From positions 1-64,000 of the forward strand of contig JAHKAM010000055.1 of NCBI GenBank assembly GCA_018826515.1: a DNA stretch of 64,000 bases. The letters run 5' to 3'. Under the pieces are notes generated by a model. The model was not told the origin of the DNA, ran no database searches, and saw only the letters and a list, made by a program, of their open reading frames with translations. A program made the position numbers and the translations under genes. Shown piece by piece: positions 13,900-35,204 of this stretch; the first letter of the stretch is position 1, and every line of letters begins with the position of its first letter. The DNA is from Alphaproteobacteria bacterium (lineage in GTDB: Bacteria > Pseudomonadota > Alphaproteobacteria > Caulobacterales > Caulobacteraceae).

Positions 13900-14787
13900 T
13901 CAGCCGCGCATCAATCGGCGACACAGGTCATCGAGCTGCTCCAGCGTGCCATAGCGGATGGTCAGTTCGCCCTTGCCGCCGCGGTCGGCCAGCTGGACCT
14001 TGAGGCCGAGGGCGTCGGCGAGGTCCTGTTCCAAGGCCGCGACATCGGCCGCACCCTCCCCGCTCGCCGAAAACGCCACCGCCTTGCGAGCTTTCGGTCC
14101 CTCGGCGGCCCGGCGGGCCAGGGCTTCGGCCTGACGGACGTTGAGCCCCTCGGCCACGATCTGATCGGCCAGGGCGCCGGGATCGGGCGCCGTGATCAAC
14201 GCGCGCGCATGACCGGCGCTGAGCTTGCCGGACCGGACGTGCTGAAGGACCTCTTCCGGCAGCTGCAGCAGGCGCAGGGTATTGGCCACATGGCTGCGGC
14301 TCTTGCCGACCACGCCGGCGACGGCGTCCTGGGTGCGGCCGAACCGCTCCATCAGCATACGATAGGCATCGGCCTCCTCCAGCGGATTCAGGTCAGTCCG
14401 CTGGACATTCTCGATGATGGCGACCTCGAACACCGCGACGTCATCCATCTCCTTGATGATGATCGGCGCCTCGGTCAGCCGGGCCAGCTGGGCCGCGCGC
14501 CAGCGCCGCTCGCCGGCGATGATCTGCCAGACGCCGTCCTCTTTCGGATGGGACCGGACAAGGATGGGCTGGAGCACCCCCTTGTCGCGGATCGAGGCCG
14601 ACAGCTCCTCCAGATCCTCGCGGTCGAAGATCTTGCGGGGCTGGTCCGGATTGGGCTTGAGGCTCTCGATCGGCGCCATGCGCACACCAACGGGCGCGGG
14701 GGCGCCGTCGACCGGGGCGCTCTCGGCCACCTGTTCTCCGAGAAGGGCCGAAAGACCCCGTCCAAGACCGCGCTGACGTTCGCTCAA
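13900..14787 (-). CDS. parB: Chromosome-partitioning protein ParB
   Basis: CTP-dependent DNA clamp that loads at parS and spreads to build the segregation complex. The 295 residues have the N-terminal ParA-contacting GLGRGLSALLG, the CTP-binding ParB/Srx fold (GERRWRAAQLA, then ENVQRTDLNPLEEA), a helix-turn-helix (VAGVVGKSRSHVANTLRL) and a C-terminal dimer domain. The start is TTG (TTGAGCGAACG), the only codon that keeps the conserved N-terminus. Three candidate parS targets lie at nt 15449, 18292 and 20008. It follows parA by 28 nt. Confidence 0.96.
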   Translation of the reverse strand: MSERQRGLGRGLSALLGEQVAESAPVDGAPAPVGVRMAPIESLKPNPDQPRKIFDREDLEELSASIRDKGVLQPILVRSHPKEDGVWQIIAGERRWRAAQLARLTEAPIIIKEMDDVAVFEVAIIENVQRTDLNPLEEADAYRMLMERFGRTQDAVAGVVGKSRSHVANTLRLLQLPEEVLQHVRSGKLSAGHARALITAPDPGALADQIVAEGLNVRQAEALARRAAEGPKARKAVAFSASGEGAADVAALEQDLADALGLKVQLADRGGKGELTIRYGTLEQLDDLCRRLMRG

Positions 14788-14815: not shown

Positions 14816-15643
14816 TCAGGCGGCCTGCAGGCGGCGGGACTTTTCACGCGCCACGACCTCGCGGGCGAGACGCAGATAGGCCTGGCTGCCGGCGCATTTC
14901 AGATCGTAGATCAGCGCCGGCTTGCCGAACGACGGCGCTTCCGCGACGCGGACGTTCCGCGGGATCACCGCCTCATACACCTTGTCCCCGAAATGGTTGC
15001 GCACATCGGCGGCGACCTGGCCGGACAGGGTGCTGCGGCGATCGTACATGGTCAGGACAAGGCCCTGGATCTCCAGCGTCGGGTTCAGGCTCTGCCGCAC
15101 CATCTCGATGGTCTTCATCAGCTGGGTCAGGCCCTCGAGGGCGAAAAACTCACATTGCAGCGGCACCAGAACCGCGTCGGCGGCGGCCATGGCGTTGAGC
15201 GTCAACAGGTTGAGCGAGGGCGGGCAGTCGATCAGCACATAGTCATACCGGGTCTGTCCTTCGGACCCCTGTGCGCGCAGGGCGTCGCGGAGACGATAGG
15301 AGCGGCGATCCGCCTGGCTGAGCTCGATCTCGACGCCCGACATATCGGCGTCGGCCGGCACAATATCGAGCCCCGGCACGGTCGTCGGAACAGCGGACTC
15401 GTCCACGGAACGCCCGTCCACCATCACATCATAGATGGTCACCCGCCGTGTTTCACGTGGAACACCCAGACCCGTGGAGGCATTGCCCTGGGGATCCATG
15501 TCGACGATCAGCACCTTTTCGCCGATCGCGGCCAGCGCCGTGCCGAGGTTGATCGCCGTGGTGGTCTTGCCCACCCCGCCCTTCTGGTTAGAGACGGCGA
15601 GGACTCTCGTTCGACCTTGGGGGGTCTTACCGGCTTTGAACAC
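14816..15643 (-). CDS. parA: Chromosome-partitioning ATPase ParA
   Basis: Deviant-Walker ATPase that moves the ParB-parS complex across the nucleoid. About 275 residues: QKGGVGKTTTA (residues 20-30) holds the signature Lys, then VDMDPQGNASTGLG, IDCPPSLNLLTLNA and the DNA-binding C-terminal part. The start is uncertain: I prefer the GTG at nt 15643 because GGAG lies 8 nt upstream and the resulting N-terminus (MFKAGKTPQGRTRVLAV) is close to other chromosomal ParA proteins. A GTG at nt 15685 is also in frame. It overlaps the end of rsmG, and contains a parS-like site at nt 15449-15464. Confidence 0.94.
   Translation of the reverse strand: MFKAGKTPQGRTRVLAVSNQKGGVGKTTTAINLGTALAAIGEKVLIVDMDPQGNASTGLGVPRETRRVTIYDVMVDGRSVDESAVPTTVPGLDIVPADADMSGVEIELSQADRRSYRLRDALRAQGSEGQTRYDYVLIDCPPSLNLLTLNAMAAADAVLVPLQCEFFALEGLTQLMKTIEMVRQSLNPTLEIQGLVLTMYDRRSTLSGQVAADVRNHFGDKVYEAVIPRNVRVAEAPSFGKPALIYDLKCAGSQAYLRLAREVVAREKSRRLQAA
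15449..15464. other. parS: parS-like site inside parA
   Basis: TGTTTCACGTGGAACA differs by one base from the perfect ParB palindrome TGTTTCACGTGAAACA. It lies within the parA coding sequence, where codons constrain drift, and less than 1 kb from parB. Confidence 0.82.
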
Positions 15644-16247
15644 GTCGGAGGCTCCGGACGGAAACGATACGGCCGCGCGGATCACTGCGCGAGACGGAGA
15701 GGTCGCTGTCGAACTGCCAGACCTTGCGGGCTTCGATCAACTCAGCCTCGGCCTTTTCCCCCTTGAGAAACAGCCCCTGTGCGCCCCGCTGTAGATAAGG
15801 CTGTGCATAGCCGAGCAGCCGGTCCATCGGGGCCAGGGCCCGGGCGGTCACGACATCGACCTTGATCCGCTGTTCCTCGGCCCGGCCGTTGACGACCGTG
15901 GCCCGCAGCGACAGGGCGTCGACGGCTTCCTGCAGGAAACGGCAGCGTTTGCCGAGACTGTCGATCAGCCAGACATGACTGTCGGCGCGGTCCTTGAGCA
16001 GGATTGCGAGCACCAGTCCGGGGAAGCCGGCGCCGGCCCCGAGGTCGGCCCAGGTGCCCGCCTTCGGCGCCAGGTCGAGCAGCTGCGCGGAGTCAAAGAT
16101 GTGCCGGTTCCAGACGTCGGGGATGGTGTCGGGTCCGACGAGGTTCATCACCGCATTGGCCGCGGTCAGCCGCTCTATCAGGGTCTCGAGATCGGCCATC
16201 TGGGCGGGTGTGGCGGAGCGCTGGGTCTGGAATTCGGAGGGGGTCAT
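15627..16247 (-). CDS. rsmG: 16S rRNA (guanine-527-N7) methyltransferase
   Basis: SAM-dependent enzyme that methylates G527 of 16S rRNA (GidB). The 206 residues show the SAM pocket WADLGAGAGFPGLVLAI, then LIDSLGKRCRFLQEAV and the catalytic region VVTARALAPM. The frame remains open upstream through a C-rich repeat (to nt 16370), but the ATG at nt 16247 gives the normal N-terminus. The repeat's GGGGGAGGAG lies about 13 nt before this ATG. The mnmG-rsmG-parA-parB order is the classic near-origin cluster. Confidence 0.95.
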   Translation of the reverse strand: MTPSEFQTQRSATPAQMADLETLIERLTAANAVMNLVGPDTIPDVWNRHIFDSAQLLDLAPKAGTWADLGAGAGFPGLVLAILLKDRADSHVWLIDSLGKRCRFLQEAVDALSLRATVVNGRAEEQRIKVDVVTARALAPMDRLLGYAQPYLQRGAQGLFLKGEKAEAELIEARKVWQFDSDLSVSRSDPRGRIVSVRSLRRVQSR

Positions 16248-18291: not shown

Positions 18292-18307
18292 TGTTTCACG
18301 TGAAACG
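18292..18307. other. parS: parS site between mnmG and mnmE
   Basis: TGTTTCACGTGAAACG keeps the 14-bp core GTTTCACGTGAAAC of the universal ParB palindrome. It sits in the 69-bp gap between mnmG and mnmE, about 3.5 kb from parB. Confidence 0.88.
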
Positions 18308-20007: not shown

Positions 20008-20023
20008 TGTTTCACGTGAAACA
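20008..20023. other. parS: parS site, perfect 16-bp palindrome
   Basis: TGTTTCACGTGAAACA is the exact bacterial parS consensus. It lies in the 42-bp gap between the DUF6489 gene and the rho stop codon, about 5.2 kb from parB and 4.2 kb from the predicted origin. Confidence 0.93.
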
Positions 20024-22126: not shown

Positions 22127-23160
22127 GCCGTCCCCCGCTCACAGGTCCGGGGACAGGCCTTCCAGTCCGCCCGGCAGCCAGGACCCCAGGGCGCCGTCCC
22201 GGTCCGCGGCAAGGCGTCGACCACGGCCTCGGCCAGTGTCCGGATGAAGGGTGCCGCCACGCCCACCGCCGGGCTGCGCAGGTAGGGGGTCACGCCCTGT
22301 TCGTGGGCCAGTTCGGCGTATTCGATGTCCAGCTCGACCAGGGTCTCGATGTGTTCGGAGACGAAGGCGACCGGCGTCACCACCACCCCGACCCCGTCGC
22401 GACCCGCCTGGGCGATCGCGTCCGGGGTCGACGGCCCCAGCCATTTCATCGGCCCGACCCGGCTCTGGTAGCAGATCGCCCAGTCGGTCAGCCCGGCATG
22501 GGCGGCGATGGCGGCGCAGGTGGACTCGATCTGCTCCTGATAGGGATCGCCCTTCCGGGTGATCAGGCTTTCGGGAATACCGTGGGCCGAGAACAGGACG
22601 CGGACCCGCCGGTCGCCGGCCTCCGCCAGCTTCGCCCGGACCCCGTCGGCCTGGGCCTCGATCCAGCCCGCCGCCTCCGGATAGCAACAGACCGTCCGGC
22701 TGGCGCCCGACCCCGCATAGACCTCCGACCAGCGTTTCAGCGAGGACTCGGTCGTCGTGGTCGAGAACTGCGGATACAGCGGCAGGAGAACGATTTCATC
22801 CGGCCCGAACGCGGCCACGTCCACCGCCGTCTCCTCGGTCAGGGGCGACCAGTAGCGCATGGCGATGAAGGCGCGGATCTCGTCGTCCGGAAGCAGGCCG
22901 GCCAGGGCCTGCGCGAGAGCGTCCGCCTGTCTGCGGGTCTCCGGCAGCAGGGGCGACCCGCCGCCCATCAGAGCGTAGTTGGCCTGGGCCCCCTTTTCGC
23001 GGCGACTCGAGATCAGCCGGGCCAGGGCGGTGCGGAACGGATTGGGCAGGCCGATGATGGCCGGATCATTGAACAGGTTGAACAGAAAGGGCCGGACGGA
23101 CGCCTGATCATCAGGGCCCCCGAGGTTGAACAGAACAATCGCGATGCGGCGACCGGTCAT
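22123..23160 (-). CDS. hemH: Ferrochelatase
   Basis: Inserts Fe2+ into protoporphyrin IX, the final step of protohaem synthesis. The 345 residues show VLFNLGGPD at the start, the active-site His in LFSAHGIPESL, then CYQSRVGPMKWLGP and the metal-site Glu in PVAFVSEHIETLVELDIEY. The C-terminus is Cys-containing (KACPRTCERG), seen in some bacterial ferrochelatases with an Fe-S cluster, though cluster binding here is unproven. Starts and stops overlap hemE and hemJ (ATGA each). Confidence 0.96.
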   Translation of the reverse strand: MTGRRIAIVLFNLGGPDDQASVRPFLFNLFNDPAIIGLPNPFRTALARLISSRREKGAQANYALMGGGSPLLPETRRQADALAQALAGLLPDDEIRAFIAMRYWSPLTEETAVDVAAFGPDEIVLLPLYPQFSTTTTESSLKRWSEVYAGSGASRTVCCYPEAAGWIEAQADGVRAKLAEAGDRRVRVLFSAHGIPESLITRKGDPYQEQIESTCAAIAAHAGLTDWAICYQSRVGPMKWLGPSTPDAIAQAGRDGVGVVVTPVAFVSEHIETLVELDIEYAELAHEQGVTPYLRSPAVGVAAPFIRTLAEAVVDALPRTGTAPWGPGCRADWKACPRTCERGTA

Positions 23161-24203
23161 TGGGCGCCAATCCGTTTCAGAACCTGTTCGACGTGGGCGA
23201 TCGGCACGTCCGGCAGGATGCCGTGGCCGAGGTTGAAGATCCATGGCCCCTGCCCCCAGGCCTCGAGCAGCTGGTCGACGCGACGATCCAGCATAGGTCC
23301 CCCGGCGCGCAGCAGCAGGGGATCGAGCGCCCCCTGGATCGGCTTGATCGCCTGGACGCGGCGGCCGATGTCGAGGGGACAGGCCGTATCGAGCGCCACC
23401 GCCTGGACGTCCACCTCGGCGGCATAGCGCTCGGCCAGGGCCGCCGATCCCCGCGGAAAGCCGATCAGCGGAACGGTCACCCCCAGCTCCCGGACCCGCC
23501 TCACCAGCTTCTGATGCGGTCGCAGAACGAGACTTTCGAACAGATCCTCCGGCAGACCCTCGGCCCAGCTCTCGAAGATCTTCAGCACCTGGGCGCCGGC
23601 GTCGGCCTGCATCTTCAGATAATGGGCCGTGGCCTCGACCAGCACATCCAGAAGCGCCGCGACCTCTTCCGGCTCGGCATAGGCATAGGTGCGGGCCTGG
23701 GCCCGTTCGCCCTTGCCGATCGAGCGGGACTCGCCGTCCAGCATATAGGTGGCGACTGTCCAGGGCGCGCCGGCGAAGCCGATCAGGGCCCGCCCGGGGT
23801 CCAGTTGCCCACGCACCAGGGACAGGGTCTCGCCGACCTGTTTCAACGCCTCGCCGGCCGCGCCGGTCAGCGCTTCCATGGTCGCCACCGGCGGCAGGGC
23901 GCCCAGCCGGGGTCCCTCGCCCGCCTCGAACCAGACCTCCTGGCCGAGGGCGCGGGGGATCAGCAGAATGTCCGCGAAGACGATGGCGGCGTCGAAGCCG
24001 AACCGCCGCATCGGCTGCAAGGTCGCCTCGGCCGCCTTTTCCGGGTCAAGGCAGAAGGAGATGAAGTCCGGGGTGGTCGCCCTCAGGGCGCGGTATTCCG
24101 GCAGGTAGCGCCCGGCCTGCCGCATGAACCATACCGGAGGCCTCGCGGTCGCCTCGCCGGCGAGAACCTTGAGCAACAGGGGCGTATCGGGGGAGAGGGT
24201 CAT
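23157..24203 (-). CDS. hemE: Uroporphyrinogen decarboxylase
   Basis: Decarboxylates uroporphyrinogen III to coproporphyrinogen III. The 348 residues include both family signatures: PVWFMRQAGRYLPEYR (residues 23-38) and GFAGAPWTVATYML, and the active-site Asp in FADILLIPRALGQ. It is the first gene of hemE-hemH-hemJ and borders the predicted replication origin, the same flank as Cori in Caulobacter, where hemE transcription starts inside the origin. Confidence 0.97.
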   Translation of the reverse strand: MTLSPDTPLLLKVLAGEATARPPVWFMRQAGRYLPEYRALRATTPDFISFCLDPEKAAEATLQPMRRFGFDAAIVFADILLIPRALGQEVWFEAGEGPRLGALPPVATMEALTGAAGEALKQVGETLSLVRGQLDPGRALIGFAGAPWTVATYMLDGESRSIGKGERAQARTYAYAEPEEVAALLDVLVEATAHYLKMQADAGAQVLKIFESWAEGLPEDLFESLVLRPHQKLVRRVRELGVTVPLIGFPRGSAALAERYAAEVDVQAVALDTACPLDIGRRVQAIKPIQGALDPLLLRAGGPMLDRRVDQLLEAWGQGPWIFNLGHGILPDVPIAHVEQVLKRIGAQ

Positions 24204-24426
24204 ATGCTCCCGGTCCTACCGGGGGGCCGGGTCCGGCTCAAGCCCGTCCCGCGTCGCACCCTCCAATCCTTCTCAAGAAAAGAATCGAAAGATTTGGAAG
24301 TAGAAGACAGGGCCGGGGACGAAGGGGACAAAAGCCCTGTTTGGACCGTCTCCGGACGGGTTTTCCGCAAACGGTCACCGGGCGGCGCCCCGGCGTCCAC
24401 GGCGTTGGTGAAAGCGGGGATAAATC

Positions 24427-24441
24427 CTAACGAGGCCTTAA
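24427..24441. promoter_or_regulatory. CtrA-binding site, one mismatch
   Basis: CTAA-CGAGGCC-TTAA fits the CtrA consensus TTAA-N7-TTAA with one mismatch. It lies 4 nt from a DnaA-box-like 9-mer (24415-24423), the kind of overlap by which CtrA represses initiation in Caulobacter. Confidence 0.65.
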
Positions 24442-24487
24442 CGCGGGGTCTCAACGGCCGACAGCGGCGCGAAGGGGCTGGGCGCCG

Positions 24488-24502
24488 TTAACGTCTCATT
24501 AA
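24488..24502. promoter_or_regulatory. CtrA-binding site, perfect TTAA-N7-TTAA
   Basis: TTAA-CGTCTCA-TTAA matches the full CtrA consensus with exact 7-nt spacing. It is followed after 2 nt by the DnaA-box-like ATCTCCACA. Confidence 0.8.
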
Positions 24503-24504
24503 GG

Positions 24505-24513
24505 ATCTCCACA
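24505..24513 (+). promoter_or_regulatory. DnaA-box-like 9-mer next to the CtrA site
   Basis: ATCTCCACA matches TTATCCACA at 7 of 9 positions, including TCCACA. Degenerate boxes of this sort are used in Caulobacter. Its position beside a perfect CtrA site is the main reason to take it seriously. Confidence 0.5.
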
Positions 24514-24690
24514 GGCGGACCGGCGTCCGCGGACCGCCTTGGGATGAAAGCGTCCGCCGCCGCCGCCGTCATCCACCTCTGTCCCCGCTCGCGGCCCGCC
24601 TCCGGCGCCGCTATAGGGAAAGACGGGCCTTTCGCCCCCGACGGCGCCCCGGCCCGTCCACAGGAGTCTCGCAATCATGGACAGCTGCCG

Positions 24691-25572
24691 ATGAGCCCGG
24701 GATCAGGATCGGGCCGCACCTCGGGCCCGTCACGGCTGGCGACCTATTTCCATGTGCACCTGGTCTCGGATTCTACAGGAGAGACCCTGAACGCCATGGC
24801 CAAGGCCGTGGTGGCCCGGTTCGACGGCGTTATCCCGATCGAGCACATCTATGCCCTGGTCCGCTCGGGCAAACAGATGGAGCGGGTGCTGGAAGAGGTG
24901 GCCGCGTCGCCGGGCGTGGTCCTGCACACCCTGGTCGACCGCGACCTGCGCGAACAGCTGGAGCAAGGCTGCCGGACGCTGGACATGCCCCAGATCGCGG
25001 CCCTTGATCCGCTCGTCGGGGCCCTGTCGCGCTATCTCGGCGCCGCCCTGTCGACCCGGGTGGGTGCGCAGCACGCGCTGGACACGGACTATTTCAACCG
25101 CATCGCCGCCCTCGACTACGCCATGGCCCATGACGACGGACAGGGCACGGCAGTCCAGTTGGAGGGCGCTGACGTCGTGCTGTGCGGGGTCAGCCGCACC
25201 TCCAAGACCCCGACCTGCATCTATCTGGCTCACCGGGGCGTCCGCGCCGCCAATGTGCCGCTGGTGCCCGGCCAGGAGGATGGGGAGCGGCTGGTCGGGC
25301 TGAAGAATCCGCTGGTGGTCGGCCTGACGGTCTCGCCCGACCGGCTCGTGCAGATTCGACGGAATCGGCTGGACGGGCTGAACGCTGACCGGGCCAGTTC
25401 GTATGTCGATCACGAGGCGGTGCGCGAAGAGACGGTCAAGGCCCGGCGCGCCTTTGAACGGCGCGGCTGGCCGGTCATCGACGTGACCCGCCGGTCGGTC
25501 GAGGAGACGGCGGCGGCGGTCATCAACCTGCTCAACGAGCGCCGCACCCGGCGGCTGGCGGCCTCATGGTGA
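24691..25572 (+). CDS. ppsR: PPDK/PEP-synthase regulatory kinase-pyrophosphorylase (DUF299)
   Basis: Bifunctional ADP-dependent kinase and Pi-dependent pyrophosphorylase that switches pyruvate-phosphate dikinase or PEP synthase off and on. The 293 residues have the family start FHVHLVSDSTGET and the P-loop CGVSRTSKTPTCIYLA. The target is not in the window. The ATG at nt 24691 overlaps the stop of a five-codon frame (nt 24677-24694), which has a GGAG upstream. First gene right of the origin and the start of an overlapping run with maf, aroE and coaE. Confidence 0.92.
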   Translation: MSPGSGSGRTSGPSRLATYFHVHLVSDSTGETLNAMAKAVVARFDGVIPIEHIYALVRSGKQMERVLEEVAASPGVVLHTLVDRDLREQLEQGCRTLDMPQIAALDPLVGALSRYLGAALSTRVGAQHALDTDYFNRIAALDYAMAHDDGQGTAVQLEGADVVLCGVSRTSKTPTCIYLAHRGVRAANVPLVPGQEDGERLVGLKNPLVVGLTVSPDRLVQIRRNRLDGLNADRASSYVDHEAVREETVKARRAFERRGWPVIDVTRRSVEETAAAVINLLNERRTRRLAASW

Positions 25573-26171
25573 CCGCCCCGACCGAGCGGCTGATCCTCGC
25601 GTCGAAAAGCGCGGCGCGGCGGTCGATGCTGACCGGCGCCGGCGTGCCCTTTACGGTCCAGGTCGCCGATGTCGATGAGGACGCCGTCAAGGCGACGCAT
25701 GATCCGGCCGATGCCGCGGGGCTGGCGATTGAACTGGCGCGTGCCAAGGCATTGGCTGTGTCCCGCCACGACGCCGACGCCTGGGTGCTGGGCGCGGACC
25801 AGACCCTGGCGTTGGACGGCGGTCTGCTGTCGAAGGCGGGATCGCTGGAAGCGGCGCGGGTGCAGCTGGAGGCGATGCGCGGCCGGGTCCATCATCTGCA
25901 CTCGGGCGCCGCCCTCGCGCACAACGGCCAGATCGTCTGGTCGGGCGTGGATACGGTCACGATGCGGGTCCGGCCGTTTTCCAACGCCTTCCTGGACGCC
26001 TATCTGGCGGCCGAGGGCGAGGGACTTCTGGCCTGTGTCGGCTCCTACCGGCTGGAGGGCATGGGCGCCCAGCTGTTCGAGGCGGTGGAGGGCGACTATT
26101 TCACCGTCCTGGGCCTGCCGCTCTGGCCTGTGCTGGCCGAGCTGCGCCGGGCCGGGGTGTTGAAGTCATGA
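25566..26171 (+). CDS. maf: Maf-family nucleoside-triphosphate pyrophosphatase
   Basis: House-cleaning enzyme that hydrolyses non-canonical or UTP-type nucleotides to monophosphates. The 201 residues begin with the Maf signature [14 protein letters not shown]; the acidic motif VLGADQTL and the C-terminal signature [15 protein letters not shown] also match. Overlaps ppsR by 7 nt and aroE by 4 nt, which implies co-translation. Assignment to a substrate subgroup is not possible by eye. Confidence 0.92.
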
Positions 26172-26965
26172 CGATGCAGGCGGGCGTCGCGGGCCAGCCC
26201 ATCGCCCATTCGCTCAGTCCCCTGATCCACGCCGCCTGGATCGCGGCGGCCGGCCTGGACGCCGCCTACCAGGCCTGGGGGCCCGCGGATGCCGACGAAT
26301 TCGCCGCCCTCGTCGCCGAAGGGCGCGCCGGCAGGCTGCGCGGGATGAACGTCACCGCCCCGTTCAAGGAACAGGCGCTGGCTATGGCGCAAGAGGCCAG
26401 CGCCACGGCGAGAACCTGTGGATCGGCCAATCTGCTGTTGTTCGGGGGCGGCCGGGTCCGGGCCGACAGCACCGATGGCGCAGGGCTGATGGCGGCGCTG
26501 GCCGAACAGGCGCCGCAGCTGGATGTGAACGGCCGTTGGGTGATGGTGCTCGGCGCGGGGGGCGCCGCGCGGGCGGCGGTCGCGGCGCTCAAGGCCGCCG
26601 GCGCCGAGGTCGGGGTGCTGAACCGGACGCGGGCGCGGGCCGAAGCCTTGGGATCGGACCTCGGCGTGGTCGTCGCGGAACCCGGCGCGCTGGCCGGGGC
26701 GGCGCTTGTGGTCAATGGGCTCAGCGTGCGACCCGATATCGACCTTTCGGGACTGCGGGACGACGCGGTGTTGATGGATATGACCTATCGTCCGCTCATG
26801 ACGCCCTTTCTGGCGCAGGGTCGGGCGCGCGGTCTGGCGACGGTGGATGGTCTGGCCATGCTGATCGGCCAGGCGCGGCCCTCGTTCCAGGCCTTGTTCG
26901 GTCAGGCGCCGCCGGATGTGGACGTGCGCTCAGTCGCGCTCCGAGCGCTGGAGAGCGGGTCATGA
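26168..26965 (+). CDS. aroE: Shikimate dehydrogenase (NADP)
   Basis: Reduces 3-dehydroshikimate to shikimate in aromatic amino-acid synthesis. The 265 residues have the substrate-binding start [13 protein letters not shown] (Ser-x-Ser), the catalytic Lys in [18 protein letters not shown], the NADP fold [15 protein letters not shown] and the end loop [19 protein letters not shown]. Overlaps maf and coaE by 4 nt each. Complete. Confidence 0.95.
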
Positions 26966-27603
26966 TCGTGCTCGGCCTGACCGGCTCCATCGGCATGGGC
27001 AAGTCGACGACGACGGCGATGTTCGCCGATGCCGGGGCCATGGTCTGGAACGCGGACGACGCCGTGCACGGCCTCTATGCGAAAGGCGGGGCGGCCGTCG
27101 GACCGGTGGGCGAGGCGTTCCCCGGCGTGGCGGTCGACGGGGCCATCGACCGGACCCTGTTGGCGCAGGCCCTCGGCAAGGACGGAGAGGCGTTCCGACG
27201 GCTCGAGGCCATCGTCCATCCGCTGGTGATGAAGGGGCGGCTGGAGGATCTCGCGACGGCGGAGGCCCGGGGCGTGAAGCTGGCGGTGCTGGACATCCCC
27301 CTGCTGTTCGAGACCGGAGGCGATGCGGCGGTCGACGCCGTGGTGGTGGTGACCGCCCCGGCCGCGGTCCAGGCGGAGCGGGTGCTGGCCCGGCCCGGCA
27401 TGACCCGGGAGCGGTTCGACGCCATTCTGACGCGCCAGCTGCCCGATGCCGAAAAGCGCCGCCGGGCCGATTTCGTCATCGACACCAGCGTCGGACTGGA
27501 GGCGGCCCGGGCGCGGGTCGAGGAAATCGTGGGGATGGTTCTGGCGGAAGGGTGGACGCCGCCCCGACGCGGTCTTCCGAAAGCGGACGAACCATCCCAA
27601 TAA
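26962..27603 (+). CDS. coaE: Dephospho-CoA kinase
   Basis: Last step of coenzyme A synthesis: phosphorylates the ribose 3' position of dephospho-CoA. The 213 residues start with the P-loop [35 protein letters not shown] and [12 protein letters not shown] are typical CoaE motifs. ATGA overlap with aroE and 5 nt before dnaQ. The enzyme's partner coaBC also lies in this window (49818-51044). Confidence 0.95.
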
Positions 27604-27608
27604 GGGTC

Positions 27609-28334
27609 ATGTCCCGCGAAATCGTCCTCGACACCGAAACCACCGGCTTCGACCCGCGCACGGGCGATCGGATGATCGAGGTCGGCTGTATCGAGATTGA
27701 GGATCTGCTGCCCACCGGCCGGACCTTCCACCGGCTGATCCATCCCGAGCGGTTGATCCCCGCCGACGCCATCCGGGTGCACGGCATCACCGACGAGAAG
27801 GTTCGCGACGCGCCAAAATTCGCCGAGATCGTCATCGACCTCTGCGACTTCATCGGCGACGCCCCGATCATCGCCCACAACGCCCAGTTCGATCGCAATT
27901 TCATCGACCATGAGTTCGGCCGCTGCGGCCGGGCCCTGTTTCCCGAGGATCGCTGGATCGACACGCTGAAGCTGGCCCAGACCCGGTTTCCCGGCATGGC
28001 CAATTCGCTGGACGCCCTGTGCAAGCGGTTCAAGGTCTCGCTGGTCGAACGCACCCTGCACGGCGCCCTGATCGACGCCCGCCTGCTGGCGGAGGTGTAT
28101 CTTGAGCTGAAGGGCGGCAAGGAACGGCGGCTGGACCTGTCGGCCTCGCGCACCGTCACGGCCGCCGCGACCGCCCTGGCCGCCCAGGGCTATGGACCGC
28201 GCCCCCGGCCCCTGCCCCTCCGGTCCAGCGAGGCCGAGCAGGCGGCGCATCTGGCCTTCCTGCAGACCCATCTCAAGGACCGGTCGTTGTGGGCGGCCTA
28301 TGGCCTGGACATGGAAAAGGCGTCCGCCGCCTGA
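27609..28334 (+). CDS. dnaQ: DNA polymerase III epsilon subunit (3'-5' proofreading exonuclease)
   Basis: Proofreading exonuclease of the replicase. The 241 residues have all DEDDh motifs: Exo I VLDTETTGFD, Exo II IAHNAQFDRNF, and Exo III with HGALIDARLLAEVY. The C-terminus is the short region that binds DnaE. Last gene of the plus-strand run from the origin, convergent with secB. Confidence 0.96.
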   Translation: MSREIVLDTETTGFDPRTGDRMIEVGCIEIEDLLPTGRTFHRLIHPERLIPADAIRVHGITDEKVRDAPKFAEIVIDLCDFIGDAPIIAHNAQFDRNFIDHEFGRCGRALFPEDRWIDTLKLAQTRFPGMANSLDALCKRFKVSLVERTLHGALIDARLLAEVYLELKGGKERRLDLSASRTVTAAATALAAQGYGPRPRPLPLRSSEAEQAAHLAFLQTHLKDRSLWAAYGLDMEKASAA

Positions 28335-28369
28335 CGGACGCCTGATCGGGCTCTATCGCTTGAGAGCGC

Positions 28370-28879
28370 TTAAGCCTGGCCGGTCTCGGCCGGGCCGCGG
28401 GCGATGGACTGCTGGCGGGCCACATAGATGCCGGCGAAGTCGATCGGATCCAGCATGAAGGGCGGGTAGAAGCCGCCGTCCGAGGTGGCGCGGGCGATAA
28501 TCTCGCGGGCGAACGGGAACAGATAGCGCGGGCATTCGATCAGCAGCAGCGGCTCGATGTCCTGCTCGGGCACGCCCTGCAGGGCGAACAGGCCGCCGTA
28601 CAGCAGTTCAACGTTGAAGACCGTCATGGCGTCGGTGGTGGCCTTGATGGTCAGGCGCAGGTCGACCTCGAACAGACCGTCTGGACGGCCCTGGGCGTTC
28701 ATCTCGACGCCCATGTCGATGGCCGGCTTGCCGTCGACGCGCAGGCTGTCGGGCGCCTTCGGGTTCTCGAAGGACAGATCCTTGACGTATTGGGCGACAA
28801 TGCGGAAGCCGGGGCCCTGCGGGGCGCCGTCGGCGGGCTTGGCGGTGTTGGCGTCAGAGGGAGGCGCGGCGTCGGTCAT
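28370..28879 (-). CDS. secB: Protein-export chaperone SecB
   Basis: Cytosolic tetrameric chaperone that holds precursors unfolded and hands them to SecA. The 169 residues have a disordered start, then [19 protein letters not shown], a beta-sheet region ([13 protein letters not shown]), and the SecA-contact helix [19 protein letters not shown], with [14 protein letters not shown] at the end. Typical length. Divergent from the Tim44-domain gene, sharing a 195-bp upstream gap. Confidence 0.96.
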
Positions 28880-29074
28880 CGGGCGGGTCTGTCTGAAAGA
28901 GTGGGCGGCGTCCGATTGCGGCGCCGGGAAGGCGCGGCGACTAGCACGAGGCGCCGGGTGCGGCAACGATGCTCGCCGACCGGAGAAGCGGTTCCGGTTG
29001 CGTGTGCCTATATCAATCCCTAATCGTCTCCCGTCGCGTCCGGTCCCCCGCCGGCCGCCAGCCAAGGTTTGCCA

Positions 29075-29716
29075 GTGCCGCCGGTTCCGATCCAGATCGT
29101 CATCTTCGCCGTTATCGCCGCCGTCGTCCTGTTTCAGCTCTATAATGTGCTGGGCAAGAAGGTGGGTCGCCAGCCGGAAGAGGACGCCCGCGCCAAGCCC
29201 GCCACCGCTCCGGCCGCGCCCGGCGCCGATCCGGCGGCCAATGGCCGGCCCAATGTTCTGGACGCGGTCACCCTGGCCTCGATCGCCGGGCTGAAGGCGC
29301 GCGATCCGAATTTCGACCCCATCCGCTTCCTCGACGGCGCCCGTCAGGCCCATGAGACCATCGTCCGCGCCTATGCCGCCGGCGACCGCGAGACGCTGAA
29401 ACCCCTGCTGACCGCGACGGTGATGGACTCGTTCGAGGCCGGCATCGCCGCCCGGGAGACCCGTGGCGAGACCGAAGTGGCCGAGTTCCTCCACCCCGCC
29501 CGGGCAGACCTGGAGCTGGCGACGGCCGAAGAGAACCGCGCCACGGCCAAGGTCCGGTTCCTGGCCGAGCTGCGCAATACGGTGACCCCGGCCGACGCTT
29601 CGGCCGAACCCCAGGTCGAGGAACGGCGCGTGGCCGAGCTGTGGACCTTTGAGCGCACCCTCGGCGCCAGCGACCCCAACTGGGTCCTGGCCCGCACCGA
29701 GCCCGCCGCCGCATGA
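29075..29716 (+). CDS. Tim44/TimA-domain membrane-associated protein
   Basis: An N-terminal membrane anchor (residues 4-20, [20 protein letters not shown]) is followed by a charged linker and a C-terminal Tim44-like domain ([25 protein letters not shown] to the end). Alphaproteobacterial relatives are ancestors of mitochondrial Tim44; their job is not well defined and may involve membrane-protein handling. The GTG at nt 29075 was chosen over TTG at nt 29069 because AAGG lies at proper distance only from the GTG. Overlaps mltA by 4 nt. Confidence 0.85.
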
Positions 29717-30879
29717 TCGGCGGCGGCGCGCGCCGCTGGAGACGTCCCGGAACGGCGGCCCTGCTGGGTCTCGCCCTGACCCTCGCCGCCTGCGCCAGCA
29801 CGCCGTCCGCGACCCCGCCGGCGCCGGTCCCGCCCGTTGTCGACGCCCCCGCTCCCACGCCCGCTCCGCCTCCGCCTCCGCCTCCGCCTCCGCCTCCGCC
29901 TCCGCCGGCGCCCGCGACCGTGGGACCGGGGCCCGGGACCCTGCCCGGCTGGAGCGACGAGGACCATCTGGCCGCCTTTGAGGCCTGGGCCGGCGGCTGC
30001 AGCGTCGCCCGCGACGCCGCTTCGCGCACCCAGTGCGACCGGGCCATGTATATCAAGCAGACGTCCCGCCCGGTGACGCCCTCCGCCGCCCGCGCCTTCT
30101 TCGAGAGCGGTTTCACCGTCGTCGCTGCGGTCACGCCGGACGGCGGCCCCGGCCTGCTGACCGCCTATTTCGCTCCGGAATATCAGGCGCGCCGCGCGCC
30201 GGACGGTGAGTTCGACATGCCTGTCCGGCCCCGGCCGGAGGGCTGGACACGCGGCCAGACCCTGCCTGTCCGGTCCGACATCGAGGCGGCGCCGACGGCC
30301 GACGCCCTCGCCTGGATGCGGGCCGAGGACCTGTTCTTCATGCAGATCCAGGGCTCGGGCTATCTGACCTTTGAGGACGGCTCACGCGCCCGCGCCGCCT
30401 ACGCCGCCGATAACGGCCGGCTTTTCACCGGCATCGCCCGGCCGATGGCGGAACAGGGGCTGCTGCCGGCCAACGGGACGTCGGGCGAGGCCATCCGCGA
30501 CTGGCTGGCGGCGCATCGGGGGCCGGAAGCGCGGGCGGTGATGGCGCTGAACGCGCGCTACATCTTCTTCGCCATGGATCCCGACGACAGCGGCCATCCG
30601 AACGGCGCGGCCGGCATTCCCCTGACCGCCCGCCGGTCGATCGCCGTTGACCCGGCCCACTGGCGCTATGGCGATCTGGTGTGGATTTCAGCCGACGGCG
30701 GCAATCTGCGCGGCGCGCGCGCCAGCTATCAGGGTCTGGTCGTGGCGCTGGACACAGGCTCCGCGATCCGCGGCCCGGTGAGAGCCGACTTCTATATGGG
30801 TCGTGGGGCGGCGGCGGGCGAAGAGGCGGGTGCGGTGCGCCATCCCCTCAGGATGTGGCGGCTGGTTCCGCGGCCGTAA
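29713..30879 (+). CDS. mltA: Membrane-bound lytic transglycosylase A with poly-proline linker
   Basis: Outer-membrane lipoprotein that cleaves peptidoglycan glycan strands to 1,6-anhydro products. Lipobox LTLAAC (Cys27), then a Pro-rich linker with about 14 consecutive Pro encoded by seven TCCGCC hexamers (nt 29865-29906). The MltA domain shows [11 protein letters not shown] and the 3D domain at the end with the catalytic Asp region ([16 protein letters not shown] and [20 protein letters not shown]). 388 residues. Co-translated with the Tim44-domain gene. Confidence 0.94.
29865..29906 (+). repeat. Seven tandem TCCGCC hexamers in mltA
   Basis: A perfect 42-bp microsatellite of seven TCCGCC units encodes the poly-proline linker. 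The unit is a multiple of three, so slippage would change linker length without breaking the frame. Confidence 0.9.
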
Positions 30880-30880
30880 A

Positions 30881-31038
30881 TTCCTTCTCCCGTTGGGAGA
30901 AGGTGGCCCGGAGGGCCGGATGTGGGTCGGCTGGTTGAAGCGGCGAAGCCGCCCCCCGGGGGACGACCCACACCCTTTCGCGCAAGGACGACCGCTACGC
31001 GCTCGTGCGCTCAAGCCCTCTCCCAATGGGAGAGGGTG
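30881..31038. repeat. Double-hairpin intergenic repeat, copy 1
   Basis: Starts with the hairpin CCTTCTCCC-GTT-GGGAGAAGG (30883-30903) and ends with CCCTCTCCC-AAT-GGGAGAGGG (31016-31036). Between them is GTGGCCCGGAGGGCCGGATG and a segment that includes GGTTGAAGCGGCGAAGCCGC. The second copy is at nt 51953-52108. It fills the gap between the convergent mltA and HerA-like genes. Confidence 0.9.
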
Positions 31039-31042
31039 CGGA

Positions 31043-32608
31043 TTAACGCCGCCGCAATCCGCCGAGCAGACCGCGCAGCAGTTCCCGCGTGATCGTGCTC
31101 CCCGCCGTGCGCAGGACCGACTTGGTCGCGGCCTCGATCGGGGTCTCACGGGTCGAGCGACGGGCCGGCGCACGCGGGCGGGCGGCTTCGCGCTCATAGC
31201 GGGCCTGTTCACGAGCCTCCAGCTTCTCGCGGGCGGCGGCGGCCTTTTCGGCCTCTTTCGCGGCCGCGGCGTCAGCCTTGGCGCGGGCCTCGGCCAGTTT
31301 GGCGTCGGCGGCGTCCTGATCGGCCTCCCCCCGGCGGACGGCGAGGATTTCCTCGGCGGATTCCCGGTCGATGACGGTTTCGTAGAGCCCGCGTACCGGG
31401 CTGGCGGCCATGACGGCGGCGCGTTCGGCGTCGGTGGCGGGGCCGAGGCGGCTGTCCGGCGGGCGGATCATGGTGCGGGCGACGACGTGGGGGGCGCCCT
31501 TTTCGTCGAGGGTCGAGACCAGGGCCTCTCCGACGCCCAGGCCCTGGATGGCCTCGGCCGTGTCAAAGGCGGGGTTGGCGCGGAAGCTCTGCGAGGCCGC
31601 TTTCAGGCCGCGCTGTTCGGCCGGGGTGTAGGCGCGCAGGGCGTGCTGGATACGATTTCCCAGCTGGGCGAGGACGCTGTCGGGGATGTCGGCCGGGTTC
31701 TGGGTGACGAAATAGACCCCGACGCCCTTGGAGCGGATCAGGCGCACGACCTGTTCGACCTTTTCCCTGAGCGCGTCAGGCGTGTCGTTGAACAGCAGAT
31801 GGGCCTCGTCGAAGAAGAAGACGAGACGCGGCTTCTCGGGGTCGCCGACCTCGGGCAGCTGTTCGAACAGTTCCGACAGCAGCCACAGCAGGAAGGCGGC
31901 GTAGAGGCGCGGGCTGGCCATCAGCTTCGTGGCGTCCAGGACATTGACCTGGCCGCGGCCGTCGAGGCCGGTGCGCATCATGTCTTCCAGCCGCAGGGCC
32001 GGTTCGCCGAAGAAGGCCTTGCCGCCCTGCTGCTCCAGCTGAAGGATCGACCGCTGGATGGCGGCGATGGAGGCGGGCGCGACATTGCCGACCTCGCGGC
32101 CGATGCGTTCGGCGTTCTCGCCGACATGGACCAGCATGGCGCGCAGGTCGTCGAGGTCGAGCAGCAGCAGGCCTTCCTTGTCGGCGACGTGGAAGACCAC
32201 CGACAGGACGCCTTCCTGGACGTCGTTCAGGTTCAGCATCCGGGCCAGCAGAAGGGGGCCGATCTCGCTGACGGTGGTGCGGATCGGGTGACCCTTGAGG
32301 CCGTAAAGGTCCCAGAACACGGTCGGGGCGGCGCGCGGCGTCAGGGTCAGCCCCATGCCGGCGGCGCGAGCCAGCAGTTTCTCGTTCGGCGAACCGGGCA
32401 CGCAGATGCCCGAAAGATCGCCTTTCACATCGGCGCAAAAGACCGGGACCCCGGCGTCGGAAAACCCCTGGGCCATGATCTGGAGGGTGACGGTCTTGCC
32501 TGTGCCGGTGGCGCCGGCGACCACGCCGTGGCGGTTGGCGCGGTGGAACAGAAGCTGTTCCGACTTGTCAGACTGGCCGAGGAACAGGCCGGGGGCGGCG
32601 TCAGGCAT
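31043..32608 (-). CDS. HerA-like (DUF853/YjgR family) ATPase
   Basis: A P-loop ATPase of the HerA/FtsK superfamily, about 521 residues. Walker A is [11 protein letters not shown] (residues 30-40), followed by [10 protein letters not shown]; Walker B is [12 protein letters not shown], and an arginine-finger region ([31 protein letters not shown]) follows. After residue 400 comes a Lys/Ala/Glu-rich coiled-coil tail. YjgR proteins have no settled function. No NurA-like nuclease is nearby, so it is not an obvious HerA-NurA pair. The ATG at nt 32608 has GGAG 5 nt upstream; an in-frame ATG at nt 32638 is an alternative. Confidence 0.88.
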
Positions 32609-32701
32609 GGGAACTCCGTGCGGGGGGTCGGCGCTCATGCTCTACCGGCGGCGTTCCCGGTTCAAGGCTGGATTGACGCCGACCGCCCGGACCTTGACCA
32701 T

Positions 32702-33838
32702 ATGCCGATGAAACCCCCCCTGATCGTCCCGACGTCGACCGTCTCGCGCAATGCCGTGGTGCTGATCGCGACCATAGCCGCGGGGGCGGCCGTTTACTGG
32801 CTGCGTGACATCCTGACGCCGTTGGCCATGGCGATCTTCCTGCTGATCATGATCGACGGGCTGAAGCGCTGGATCGAGCACCGGACGCCCGTCCCGGAAC
32901 GCTGGGCCGGATTGTCCGCCCTCATCGTGGTGATCCTCGGCTTCCTCGCCTCGATCGCCATCATCGTCCAGGGCGCGCGCGGATTCTTCACCCAAGCCTC
33001 GGAAGATACGGTGCTGCTGGGGCCGCGGCTCGACCAGATTCTCGCCGACACCTACCGGTTGTTCGACATGCCCGGGGCCCCGACCGCCAGCGAGCTCATC
33101 GGCCGGATCGATGTGTCGACCTATTTCGCCACCGTGGCGATGCAGGCGCAGGGCGCGGTCACCGGCGCCATTTTTGTCATGATCTATCTCGGCTTCCTGA
33201 TGGCCTCGCAGAGCGGCTTCCGTCGCAAGCTGGTCGGCATGTTCCCGGACCGGGGCTCGCGCTCCGAGGCCATGGGGGTGTTCCAGAGGGTGCGCGGCGG
33301 CGTCGAGGGCTATCTCTGGGTCCAGGCCGTGACCGGCGTGCTGATTTGCGCCGTCGCCTGGGTGCTGATGCGGGCCGTCGGTCTTCAGAACGCCGAATTC
33401 TGGACCTTCGTCATCTTCGTGGTCGGCTTCATCCCGGTCCTCGGCGGGGCGGTCGCCGGTCTGGCTCCGCCGTTGGCCGCCCTGGTGCAGTTCGAAAGCT
33501 ACTGGCCGGCCCTGATCCTTCTGATCGGGCTCCAGGCCATCCTGTTCATCAGCGGCAATTTCCTCCAGCCGCGGATGCAGGGCGACAATCAGAATATCGA
33601 TCCGGTGGTGGTGCTTCTGTCGCTGGCGTTGTGGGGCCACCTGTGGGGCGTCGTCGGCATGTTCCTGTCGACGCCGCTGGCGGTCATGGCCATGGCGGTG
33701 CTGGCCGAGTTCAAGGGCTCGCGCTGGATGGCCATCCTTCTGTCCGGGGACGGCGAACCCTATGCCGACGAGGACGACAGCCCGCCGCCGAAGGCGAAGC
33801 GGGGCCGCGTCAACCCGCCGCAGTCCGCGGGCCGCTGA
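32702..33838 (+). CDS. AI-2E family transporter
   Basis: Inner-membrane protein of 378 residues in the UPF0118/AI-2E family with 7-8 predicted transmembrane segments. Motifs include LRDILTPLAMAIFLLIMIDGL near the N-terminus and the family mark FIPVLGGAVAGLAPPLAALV and NFLQPRMQGDNQNIDPVVVLLSLALWG with GMFLSTPLAVM. Despite the family name only some members export autoinducer-2; others are Na+/H+ antiporters, and the substrate here is unknown. The C-terminus is a Lys/Pro-rich tail. Divergent from the HerA-like gene. Confidence 0.88.
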   Translation: MPMKPPLIVPTSTVSRNAVVLIATIAAGAAVYWLRDILTPLAMAIFLLIMIDGLKRWIEHRTPVPERWAGLSALIVVILGFLASIAIIVQGARGFFTQASEDTVLLGPRLDQILADTYRLFDMPGAPTASELIGRIDVSTYFATVAMQAQGAVTGAIFVMIYLGFLMASQSGFRRKLVGMFPDRGSRSEAMGVFQRVRGGVEGYLWVQAVTGVLICAVAWVLMRAVGLQNAEFWTFVIFVVGFIPVLGGAVAGLAPPLAALVQFESYWPALILLIGLQAILFISGNFLQPRMQGDNQNIDPVVVLLSLALWGHLWGVVGMFLSTPLAVMAMAVLAEFKGSRWMAILLSGDGEPYADEDDSPPPKAKRGRVNPPQSAGR

Positions 33839-33972
33839 GCCGCTTCCGCCGCCCTTGATTGGCCACAAGCGGCGCCTATTTCCCACCTGTCGCCGCGGCC
33901 CTCCCCTCCCCCCAAGCCGCGGTGGAATAGATCGGCGCCAACCCTCCCCCTCCTGGGCGCCGATCCGAAGCA

Positions 33973-34008
33973 GGCCGCCGAACGCAAGTTCGGCGGCCTT
34001 GTCGTTTC
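33973..34008 (+). terminator. Hairpin terminator-like element after the AI-2E gene
   Basis: A perfect 11-bp stem (33973-33983 with 33988-33998) has a GCAA tetraloop and is followed by TTGTCGTTTCC. It lies 135 nt after the AI-2E stop. The rest of the 322-bp gap 33839-34160 contains no gene I can support; the last 30 nt hold an AAAGGA ribosome site. Confidence 0.6.
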
Positions 34009-34160
34009 CGGAACGGAGGTCGCGGTTTCGGCGCCACAGGCCGGTTGCTGCGCCTCCGATCGCCGTCCCTTGCGGGAACGGGCGGCGCATTGCCCGCGTT
34101 AGCGGCGATGGAAGGGCGAATCGCGGGTGTTCCGCGCAGAGCTCAAAGGATACTTCCCTG

Positions 34161-35000
34161 ATGATGAAGACGATTTCCGCGGCGTCCCTGACGCTGCTCC
34201 TGGCCGGCGTGGCTTCCCCCGCCCTGGCCCAGTCTGCTCCCGACTGGAGCGGGCCTTACATCGGCGTCTACGGCGGCGTGCTCGAGAACAATGAAGACGC
34301 TGGCGAACAGCTGATCTTCGACCGTGATTTCGACGGCGATTTCGATGACACCGTGGTTCTGAACGGCACCACCAACAGCGCCTTCAGCCCCGGCTCCTGC
34401 GACGGGGCCGCCCTGGGTCAAACCCCGGCGGACGGCTGTGACGTTGACCCGACCGGCGTCGAGGGCTCGGTGCGCCTCGGCTACGATATGCAGTTCGGTT
34501 CCTTCGTGGTCGGCGCCGTCGGCGAACTGAGCGTCGCGGACGTCGAGGACTCGGTCACCTCGTACAGCACCACGCCGGCGGCCTATGCCTTCACCCGCGA
34601 GCTCGAGACCATGGCGGCCCTGCGGCTGCGCGCCGGCTTCGCCGCCGGCCCGGCCCTCTACTATGTGACGGGCGGCGGCGCGAAGGCCAAGATCCAGAAC
34701 AGCTTCCGCACCACCAACGGCGCCAACAGCTTCACCGAAACCGTCAATGACGACGAGGCCGACGGCTACCAGCTCGGCGCCGGCGTTGAATGGCGCCTGG
34801 CCCCGAACCTTTCGCTGACCGGCGAATATCTGTTCACCAACCTGCAGCCGGGCGACTATGTCGTGCGCGCCGGACCGGGCACGGCCGGACCGACCAACCC
34901 CTTCATCCTGCCGCCGAACACGGTCGGCACCGATATCGTGCGCAGCAATGACGCGATGGAGCTGCACGCCATCAAGCTGGGCATGAACGTCCGCTTCTGA
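34161..35000 (+). CDS. Outer-membrane beta-barrel protein (OmpA/porin-like fold)
   Basis: A 279-residue exported protein. Signal sequence cleaved after SPALAQ (residue 24). The mature part begins SAPDWSGPYIGVYGGVLENN, the standard start of alphaproteobacterial 8-strand barrels (Omp25/31-like). It has alternating strands such as VEGSVRLGYDMQFGSFVVGAVGEL and ends with the outer-membrane signature LHAIKLGMNVRF. A region of Asp repeats (DRDFDGDFDDT) suggests metal binding but is not a clear motif. Function beyond structure is unknown. AAAGGA lies 10 nt before the first of two adjacent ATG codons. Confidence 0.88.
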   Translation: MMKTISAASLTLLLAGVASPALAQSAPDWSGPYIGVYGGVLENNEDAGEQLIFDRDFDGDFDDTVVLNGTTNSAFSPGSCDGAALGQTPADGCDVDPTGVEGSVRLGYDMQFGSFVVGAVGELSVADVEDSVTSYSTTPAAYAFTRELETMAALRLRAGFAAGPALYYVTGGGAKAKIQNSFRTTNGANSFTETVNDDEADGYQLGAGVEWRLAPNLSLTGEYLFTNLQPGDYVVRAGPGTAGPTNPFILPPNTVGTDIVRSNDAMELHAIKLGMNVRF

Positions 35001-35032
35001 CCCCGCGGTCCGGTTGATCCATGACCGGCGCG

Positions 35033-35069
35033 ACGCCGGCTCCGGAAACGGGGCCGGCGTTGTCGTTTT
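35033..35069 (+). terminator. Intrinsic terminator after the barrel gene
   Basis: An 11-bp stem with one G-T pair (35033-35043 with 35050-35060) encloses GGAAAC and is followed by TGTCGTTTTG. The tail TTGTCGTTT is the same as after the hairpin at 33973. Confidence 0.72.
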
Positions 35070-35204
35070 GGGGGTTCCCGCCGCACGCCGGACGGCCTAG
35101 TCAGCGCGCTTCGGACAGAGCTCTTGCCCCGGTGGCGAACCGGCCTAGTCTGACCCCATCTCCGGCGGCCCGTTTGAGCGGTCGCGTCTACAAGAGACCT
35201 GCCC

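Follow-up and report, generated by a model that had tools for sequence, protein, structure and literature searches.

The intergenic gap between hemE and ppsR raises the question of whether it is the chromosomal origin of replication, as the initial annotation had proposed. The gap occupies 487 bp (24204–24690) of the window, the 64,000-nt stretch of DNA analyzed here, which represents the first 64.0 of the 73.8 kb of contig C5 in a 94-contig, 3.25-Mb draft genome. We concluded that the gap is very probably the sole, DnaA-dependent origin in the chromosome of a Brevundimonas, situated in the place of Caulobacter Cori, because the orthologous locus, the cluster of sites, an unstable A-rich segment, the adjoining parS cluster, and the conservation of the sites all agree with this reading. 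The gap would thereby anchor the origin-proximal end of this draft Brevundimonas genome. No published Brevundimonas origin appeared among the matches listed from the open-access literature (titles and abstract starts).

Gene context and sequence elements of the gap

Base-level reading showed that both flanking genes are transcribed away from the gap, as the initial annotation had stated. On the left, hemE (23157–24203, minus strand) encodes uroporphyrinogen decarboxylase (PF01208 and TIGR01464, URO-D), and on the right, ppsR (24691–25572, plus strand) encodes a COG1806-type kinase-pyrophosphorylase (PF03618, Kinase-PPPase; NF003742; PRK05339). These families confirmed that the flanking genes are those of Caulobacter Cori, for which the same pair has been published (PMC1914354). 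Family models further identified hemH, a UPF0093 membrane protein gene, rho, mnmE, mnmG, rsmG, parA, and parB toward the left of hemE, and maf, aroE, coaE, and dnaQ toward the right of ppsR, with maf and aroE scoring below the curated cut-offs. A 1621-residue ORF at 35205–40070 gave no NCBIfam match at 1e-10. The ppsR start was assigned to ATG 24691, which the alignment of relatives favored over an in-frame ATG at 24544 that lengthens the gene. The claim that the gap holds no gene was also borne out, since base-level reading and the ORFs revealed none within 24204–24690. A long ORF reaching into the gap (23160–24491, plus strand) was rejected as a mechanical frame antisense to hemE. An Rfam scan of 23900–25000 gave two matches, both far under the gathering scores.

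Next, we analyzed the CtrA-type sites and GANTC motifs. As claimed, two CtrA-type sites were present on the plus strand. The one at 24427–24441 (CTAA-N7-TTAA), identified by motif scan and alignment, had one mismatch, and its position carried an exact TTAA-N7-TTAA in L003, L012, L014, L015, L019, L094, and L096. The other, at 24488–24502, was itself TTAA-N7-TTAA and was the sole exact copy within the window. The two sites were spaced 61 bp apart. Only 0.02 sites within one mismatch were expected in the tested region (24138–24750, the gap plus short coding ends), and none of 200 dinucleotide shuffles gave two. Three of the window's 11 TTAA copies fell in the gap. The count of a single GANTC was in error; the motif scan detected two of these CcrM-type sites, at 24282–24286 and 24664–24668, neither assigned to a strand.

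The degenerate DnaA boxes that had been described were likewise present as sequence. Four 9-mers lay within two mismatches of TTATCCACA, compared to 0.5 expected from shuffles of the same region. Exact TTATNCACA, TGATCCACA, and TCCCCA were absent from the gap in the motif scan, TGATCCACA was absent from the whole window, and neither of two IHF consensus forms had a match in the gap. Two boxes on the minus strand adjoin the A-rich DNA, namely CGTCCCCGG (24313–24321), a putative weak box proposed from the alignment, and the hemE-proximal TTGTCCCCT (24323–24331), which differs from TTATCCACA by three mismatches and keeps its position in the gaps of relatives. The alignment and the shuffle test further gave TTTTCCGCA (24361–24369, plus strand; two mismatches), also found in L002–L006 and L008; TTATCCCCG (24415–24423, minus strand; two mismatches), 3 bp from the first CtrA-type site; and ATCTCCACA (24505–24513, plus strand), 2 bp past the second one, which is possibly a degenerate counterpart of the G-box/CtrA composite. 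Closer to ppsR, the alignment showed the paired weak boxes TCATCCACC and CTGTCCCCG (24569–24587, plus strand) and CGTCCACAG (24655–24663, plus strand), whose TCCACA was present in 17/17 aligned gaps.

A candidate duplex-unwinding segment was identified at 24253–24364, without strand assignment, by a nearest-neighbor stability scan. Across the 64 kb, duplex stability was lowest in the segments starting at 24265 (40 bp), 24253 (60 bp), and 24265 (100 bp), in agreement with the A-rich stretch that had been reported, and the 60-mer with the highest content of a single base, A or T, started at 24275. Mean A+T content was ordinary, at 33.3% over 24204–24680 vs. 30.8% in the window. A putative DnaA-trio-like CTT CTA CTT (24298–24306, minus strand) adjoins the boxes at 24313–24331.

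Promoter-like elements were recognized at both gap ends. A probable hemE promoter (24213–24241, minus strand) consists of TTGAGC (24236–24241), a 17-bp spacer, and TAGGAC (24213–24218), and its CTCAA was found in 17/17 aligned gaps. For ppsR, a probable −10 element GCTATA was located at 24610–24615 on the plus strand, with GCTAT in 13 of the 17. A 5-codon ORF (MDSCR, 24677–24694) preceded by AGGAG overlaps the start of ppsR through an ATGA at its 3′ end. This overlap was kept in 12/12 genomes of the group L002–L012 plus L095 despite differing ORF sizes (5, 6, 10, or 14 codons), which suggests translational coupling. In most other gaps of the genus, a short ORF before ppsR was absent or was present without AGGAG, and L094 apparently has two such ORFs chained, as judged by eye. 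The ppsR leader (24620–24690) also carries GGCGCC-type repeats (TCGGCGCCC or ACGGCGCCC), seen by eye in one or two copies in many relatives.

By analogy with Cori, where DnaA on weak boxes melts an A-rich segment and CtrA excludes DnaA (PMC4468827, PMC4285127, PMC8959179), protein binding, melting, repression, and the start of replication at the gap can be proposed as follows. DnaA would gather on the weak boxes TTGTCCCCT and CGTCCCCGG (24313–24331), TTATCCCCG (24415), ATCTCCACA (24505), and the pair at 24569–24587. From the hemE-side boxes, it would spread along the trio-like strand, and the A-rich DNA at 24253–24310 would melt toward hemE. In the non-replicating cell type, CtrA~P on 24427–24441 and 24488–24502, abutting two DnaA boxes, would block this melting. 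The new chromosome copies would be drawn apart via parS sites 4–9 kb away.

Specificity, conservation, and comparison with known origins

We then analyzed how specific these elements are to the gap. A simple gene caller delimited eight intergenic regions of 250 bp or more on the 73.8-kb contig, and CtrA sites with no more than one mismatch occurred solely in the hemE–ppsR gap. For the closed relative G012, a sampled 0.8 Mb supplied 101 regions of 300 bp or longer; the gap ranked first in density of CtrA- and DnaA-type sites and tied for first in site count with a 4.4-kb region, in a comparison that counts degenerate sites and covers our own contig plus a quarter of one relative.

The locus and its sites were conserved among relatives. 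Out of 118 genomes of the order that were searched, 77 had the 5′ side of hemE covered, and hemE and ppsR were divergent neighbors in 73 of them; in two of the four misses, the ppsR motif was not recognized (L108, L219), and in the other two, the contig ended (L110, L206). Conserved blocks in an alignment of 17 chosen Brevundimonas gaps were the box pair adjoining the A-rich stretch, CGGGGA(T)AA near the first CtrA-type site, TCC(A/C)CA after the second one, the surroundings of TCCACC and of TCCCCGCTCGC, and TCCACAGG ahead of ppsR. In 32/38 gaps of the genus and 13/18 gaps of other genera of the family, a DnaA-type box was directed toward the A-rich DNA and lay about as far from hemE, compared to 8% and 12% of the respective shuffled gaps.

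The gap was compared with C. crescentus Cori by published features; a comparative study of Caulobacter origins reportedly dates from 2009. The proven origin of C. crescentus lies between hemE and ppsR (COG1806), and so does the Rickettsia origin (PMC1914354). As described for Cori (hemE-CC0001), the gap separates these two genes in divergent orientation and has CtrA sites that abut DnaA boxes, an A+T-rich segment, weak boxes, and parS within about 8 kb (PMC1914354, PMC4468827, PMC4285127, PMC8959179). The inventory of sites differs: Cori has five CtrA sites, whereas the Brevundimonas gap has two within one mismatch, and the two G-boxes TGATCCACA, five W-boxes TCCCCA, and IHF site of Cori have no match in the gap, where TCCCCG-type weak boxes are found instead. 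A+T content is 33%, compared to the 43.6% reported for Cori. In C. crescentus, the 182-nt ncRNA gene ccnA lies between CtrA boxes, whereas the CtrA-type sites here are 61 bp apart; ccnA was looked for by the Rfam scan described above. The Brevundimonas gap very probably belongs to a known kind of origin without duplicating the layout seen in C. crescentus. The Rickettsia hemE-COG1806 origins share the flanking genes but are far more A+T-rich, at about 82% (PMC1914354).

The A-rich side of the gap also resembles the basal unwinding system described for Bacillus and others, with a minus-strand box pair, a GC-rich spacer, CTT-CTA-CTT, and A-rich DNA (PMC8287927). The published rule (PMC8287927) allows up to two mismatches in a box within 16 bp of at least three trios, whereas here the box has three mismatches, with a spacer of 16 and three trios. 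When this rule was loosened, the layout was found only in part of the relatives.

Position of the gap on the chromosome

The position of parS relative to the gap was analyzed by motif scan. Three parS-type sites with up to two mismatches were detected in the genome, all in this contig and 4–9 kb from the gap, namely an exact palindrome at 20008–20023 and sites with one mismatch at 18292–18307 and 15449–15464, none assigned to a strand. Nearby, on the minus strand, were parB (13900–14730; PF02195, PF17762, PF23552) and the gene of a parA-type ATPase (14816–15685; PF13614, PF01656). In four closed Brevundimonas genomes, no parS-type site (of 4, 4, 4, and 3, respectively) was farther than about 10 kb from the gap. 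The dnaA gene of our genome is on another contig (C60), and in the four closed genomes, it lies about 137–529 kb from hemE on either side. The closed assembly G036 starts at dnaA (0.6 kb), and its parS sites and motif polarity put the origin near 531 kb.

The polarity of FtsK motifs was then employed, using GGGNAGGG, which we take to be the FtsK motif. In G012, GGGCAGGG was approximately threefold commoner than its mirror image (302 + 303 vs. 100 + 113). Positions were compared by log-likelihood with a free terminus. In G036 (95 motifs, 20 stretches), polarity fitted best at the gap (−53.7, vs. −63.0 at dnaA), and the nearest motifs, 4.7 kb to the left and 4.8 kb to the right of the gap, point apart. 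The best position in G012 (216 motifs, 40 stretches) was near 192–200 kb, 13–20 kb from the gap at 211.7 kb, with −124.7 at the gap vs. −143.4 at dnaA. In G009 (108 motifs, 20 stretches), it was near 931–936 kb, about 40 kb from the gap at 893 kb, and dnaA (−57.2) was better than the gap (−60.7) by 3.5 units. The 920-kb contig of G001 (147 motifs, 20 stretches) switched at 566–576 kb, 150–160 kb from the gap at 727 kb (−80.7 vs. −98.6 at the gap). G105, from another genus (142 motifs, 20 stretches), was uninformative, with −95.2 at the gap and a best value of −92.1 at 805 kb. On our own contig, the hemE side had 1 plus and 11 minus motifs and the ppsR side had 6 plus and 9 minus; the change was nearer 38–44 kb than 24 kb. 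Motif polarity supports the region rather than the exact gap. Its use as a sharp locator was rejected; that impression came from a restricted search range, was softened by wider searches and two more closed genomes, and was contradicted at fine scale by G001.

GC skew was likewise rejected as an origin locator, as the window profile, 20-kb samples, and a strand-corrected fit were all weak and scattered. The distance between the gap and the switch in strand-corrected skew at fourfold sites was 124 kb in G012, 391 kb in G036, 173 kb in G009, and about 1 Mb in G105; on our own contig, the best position was 11 kb, with support over 5–25 kb. Because the genome is a 94-contig draft and the skew switches in sampled relatives are far off, a distant GC-skew minimum, which the initial annotation had named as refuting the origin, cannot serve for that purpose here.

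In four of the five Brevundimonas data sets (our own contig, G012, G009, and G001, but not G036), the polarity offsets were all toward ppsR, and in the same four, the motifs immediately beyond the gap toward ppsR (24691–40000 in our genome) point the wrong way. These switches would fit an origin 10–160 kb away on the ppsR side, with the gap serving as a divergent promoter region to which CtrA and DnaA bind. We consider this very unlikely, given that the switch in G036 is at the gap, that parS lies on the hemE side, and that the seven other intergenic regions of 250 bp or more on the contig have neither a one-mismatch CtrA site nor a near-consensus DnaA box, although two have one TCCACA core each. 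The data sets are also not independent because of shared ancestry, and the offset varies by genome, as would result from inversions that have one end near the origin. Such inversions, which have been described for Caulobacter (PMC4221894), would do as an explanation of the ppsR-ward offsets.

An origin adjoining dnaA, as in many bacteria, agrees with the start of the G036 assembly and with the slightly better fit of dnaA in G009, but the gap is favored over dnaA by 18.7 log-likelihood units in G012 and 9.3 in G036, and the distance and side of dnaA vary, whereas parS, hemE, and ppsR remain together. This placement appears highly improbable, and the data suggest that dnaA, where the G036 assembly begins, is not the origin in Brevundimonas. 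The gap could also be solely a bidirectional hemE/ppsR promoter without initiation, on which CtrA and DnaA act as transcription factors; the promoter-like elements at its two ends fit this, and both proteins are also transcription regulators in Caulobacter (PMC4468827, PMC8959179). Against it stand the location of the window's least stable segment in the gap, the directional layout from boxes to A-rich DNA, the parS cluster, and the proven orthologous origin, and we regard it as extremely improbable. An origin within the hemE–ppsR gap is accordingly retained as the preferred reading.

CtrA sites across Brevundimonas

Finally, the CtrA sites of the gap were compared across the genus. At least one site within one mismatch was present in 32/39 gaps and none in L010, L016, L017, L018, L021, L022, and L023. 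The gap of G024 (L029), which was outside the count of 39 since its hemE motif was not matched and was added later, likewise had no such site; the gap of G023 was dropped because of a contig end. What is new here is that 8 of 40 gaps of the genus are without a one-mismatch CtrA site and that seven of them need three changes on the hemE tree. Loss of CtrA sites at origins was the subject of no title among the matches listed from the open-access literature. In all eight genomes, a 1.9-kb stretch that begins 600 bp inside hemE and runs into ppsR was likewise free of CtrA sites with up to one mismatch. The hemE tree comprised 38 rows (32 from the genus and 6 others, without L029), and bootstrap trees required 3–4 changes. 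On it, the seven site-less gaps formed one five-genome group and two single lineages, and firmly supported branches force only one change.

Full-length CtrA, with 87–89% identity to the C. crescentus protein, was found in six of the seven site-less genomes searched; none was found in G005, which is 66% complete. In the site-less genomes G001, G026, G031, G018, and G036, 3–4 parS-type sites cluster at 4–9 kb from the gap, toward hemE. The short contig of G007 has one parS-type site, and the sole site of G005 carries two mismatches and lies toward ppsR. Several site-less genomes have further parS-type sites elsewhere. Among the site-less genomes, motif polarity supports the gap only in G036, and that of G001 is displaced as described above.

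These observations raise the tentative possibility, which we hold to be somewhat less than even, that the origin was kept and CtrA control was lost in Brevundimonas, apparently three or more times. If so, the site-less lineages would initiate replication under DnaA control alone. A gap without a near-consensus site does not equal a gap without CtrA binding, because a degenerate CtrA site with TAAA/TTAG half-sites is used at sciP of B. subvibrioides (PMC7987155) and because G036 retains TTAG-N7-TTAG at about the place where the window has its second CtrA-type site. The genus set offers natural variants that have near-consensus CtrA sites and others that lack them, for asking whether CtrA gates replication outside Caulobacter. 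In our own genome, ctrA was found in two pieces, with residues 1–137 encoded from base 2 of contig C47 and residues 111–228 at 89707–90060 of contig C14, and this split is probably an assembly break.
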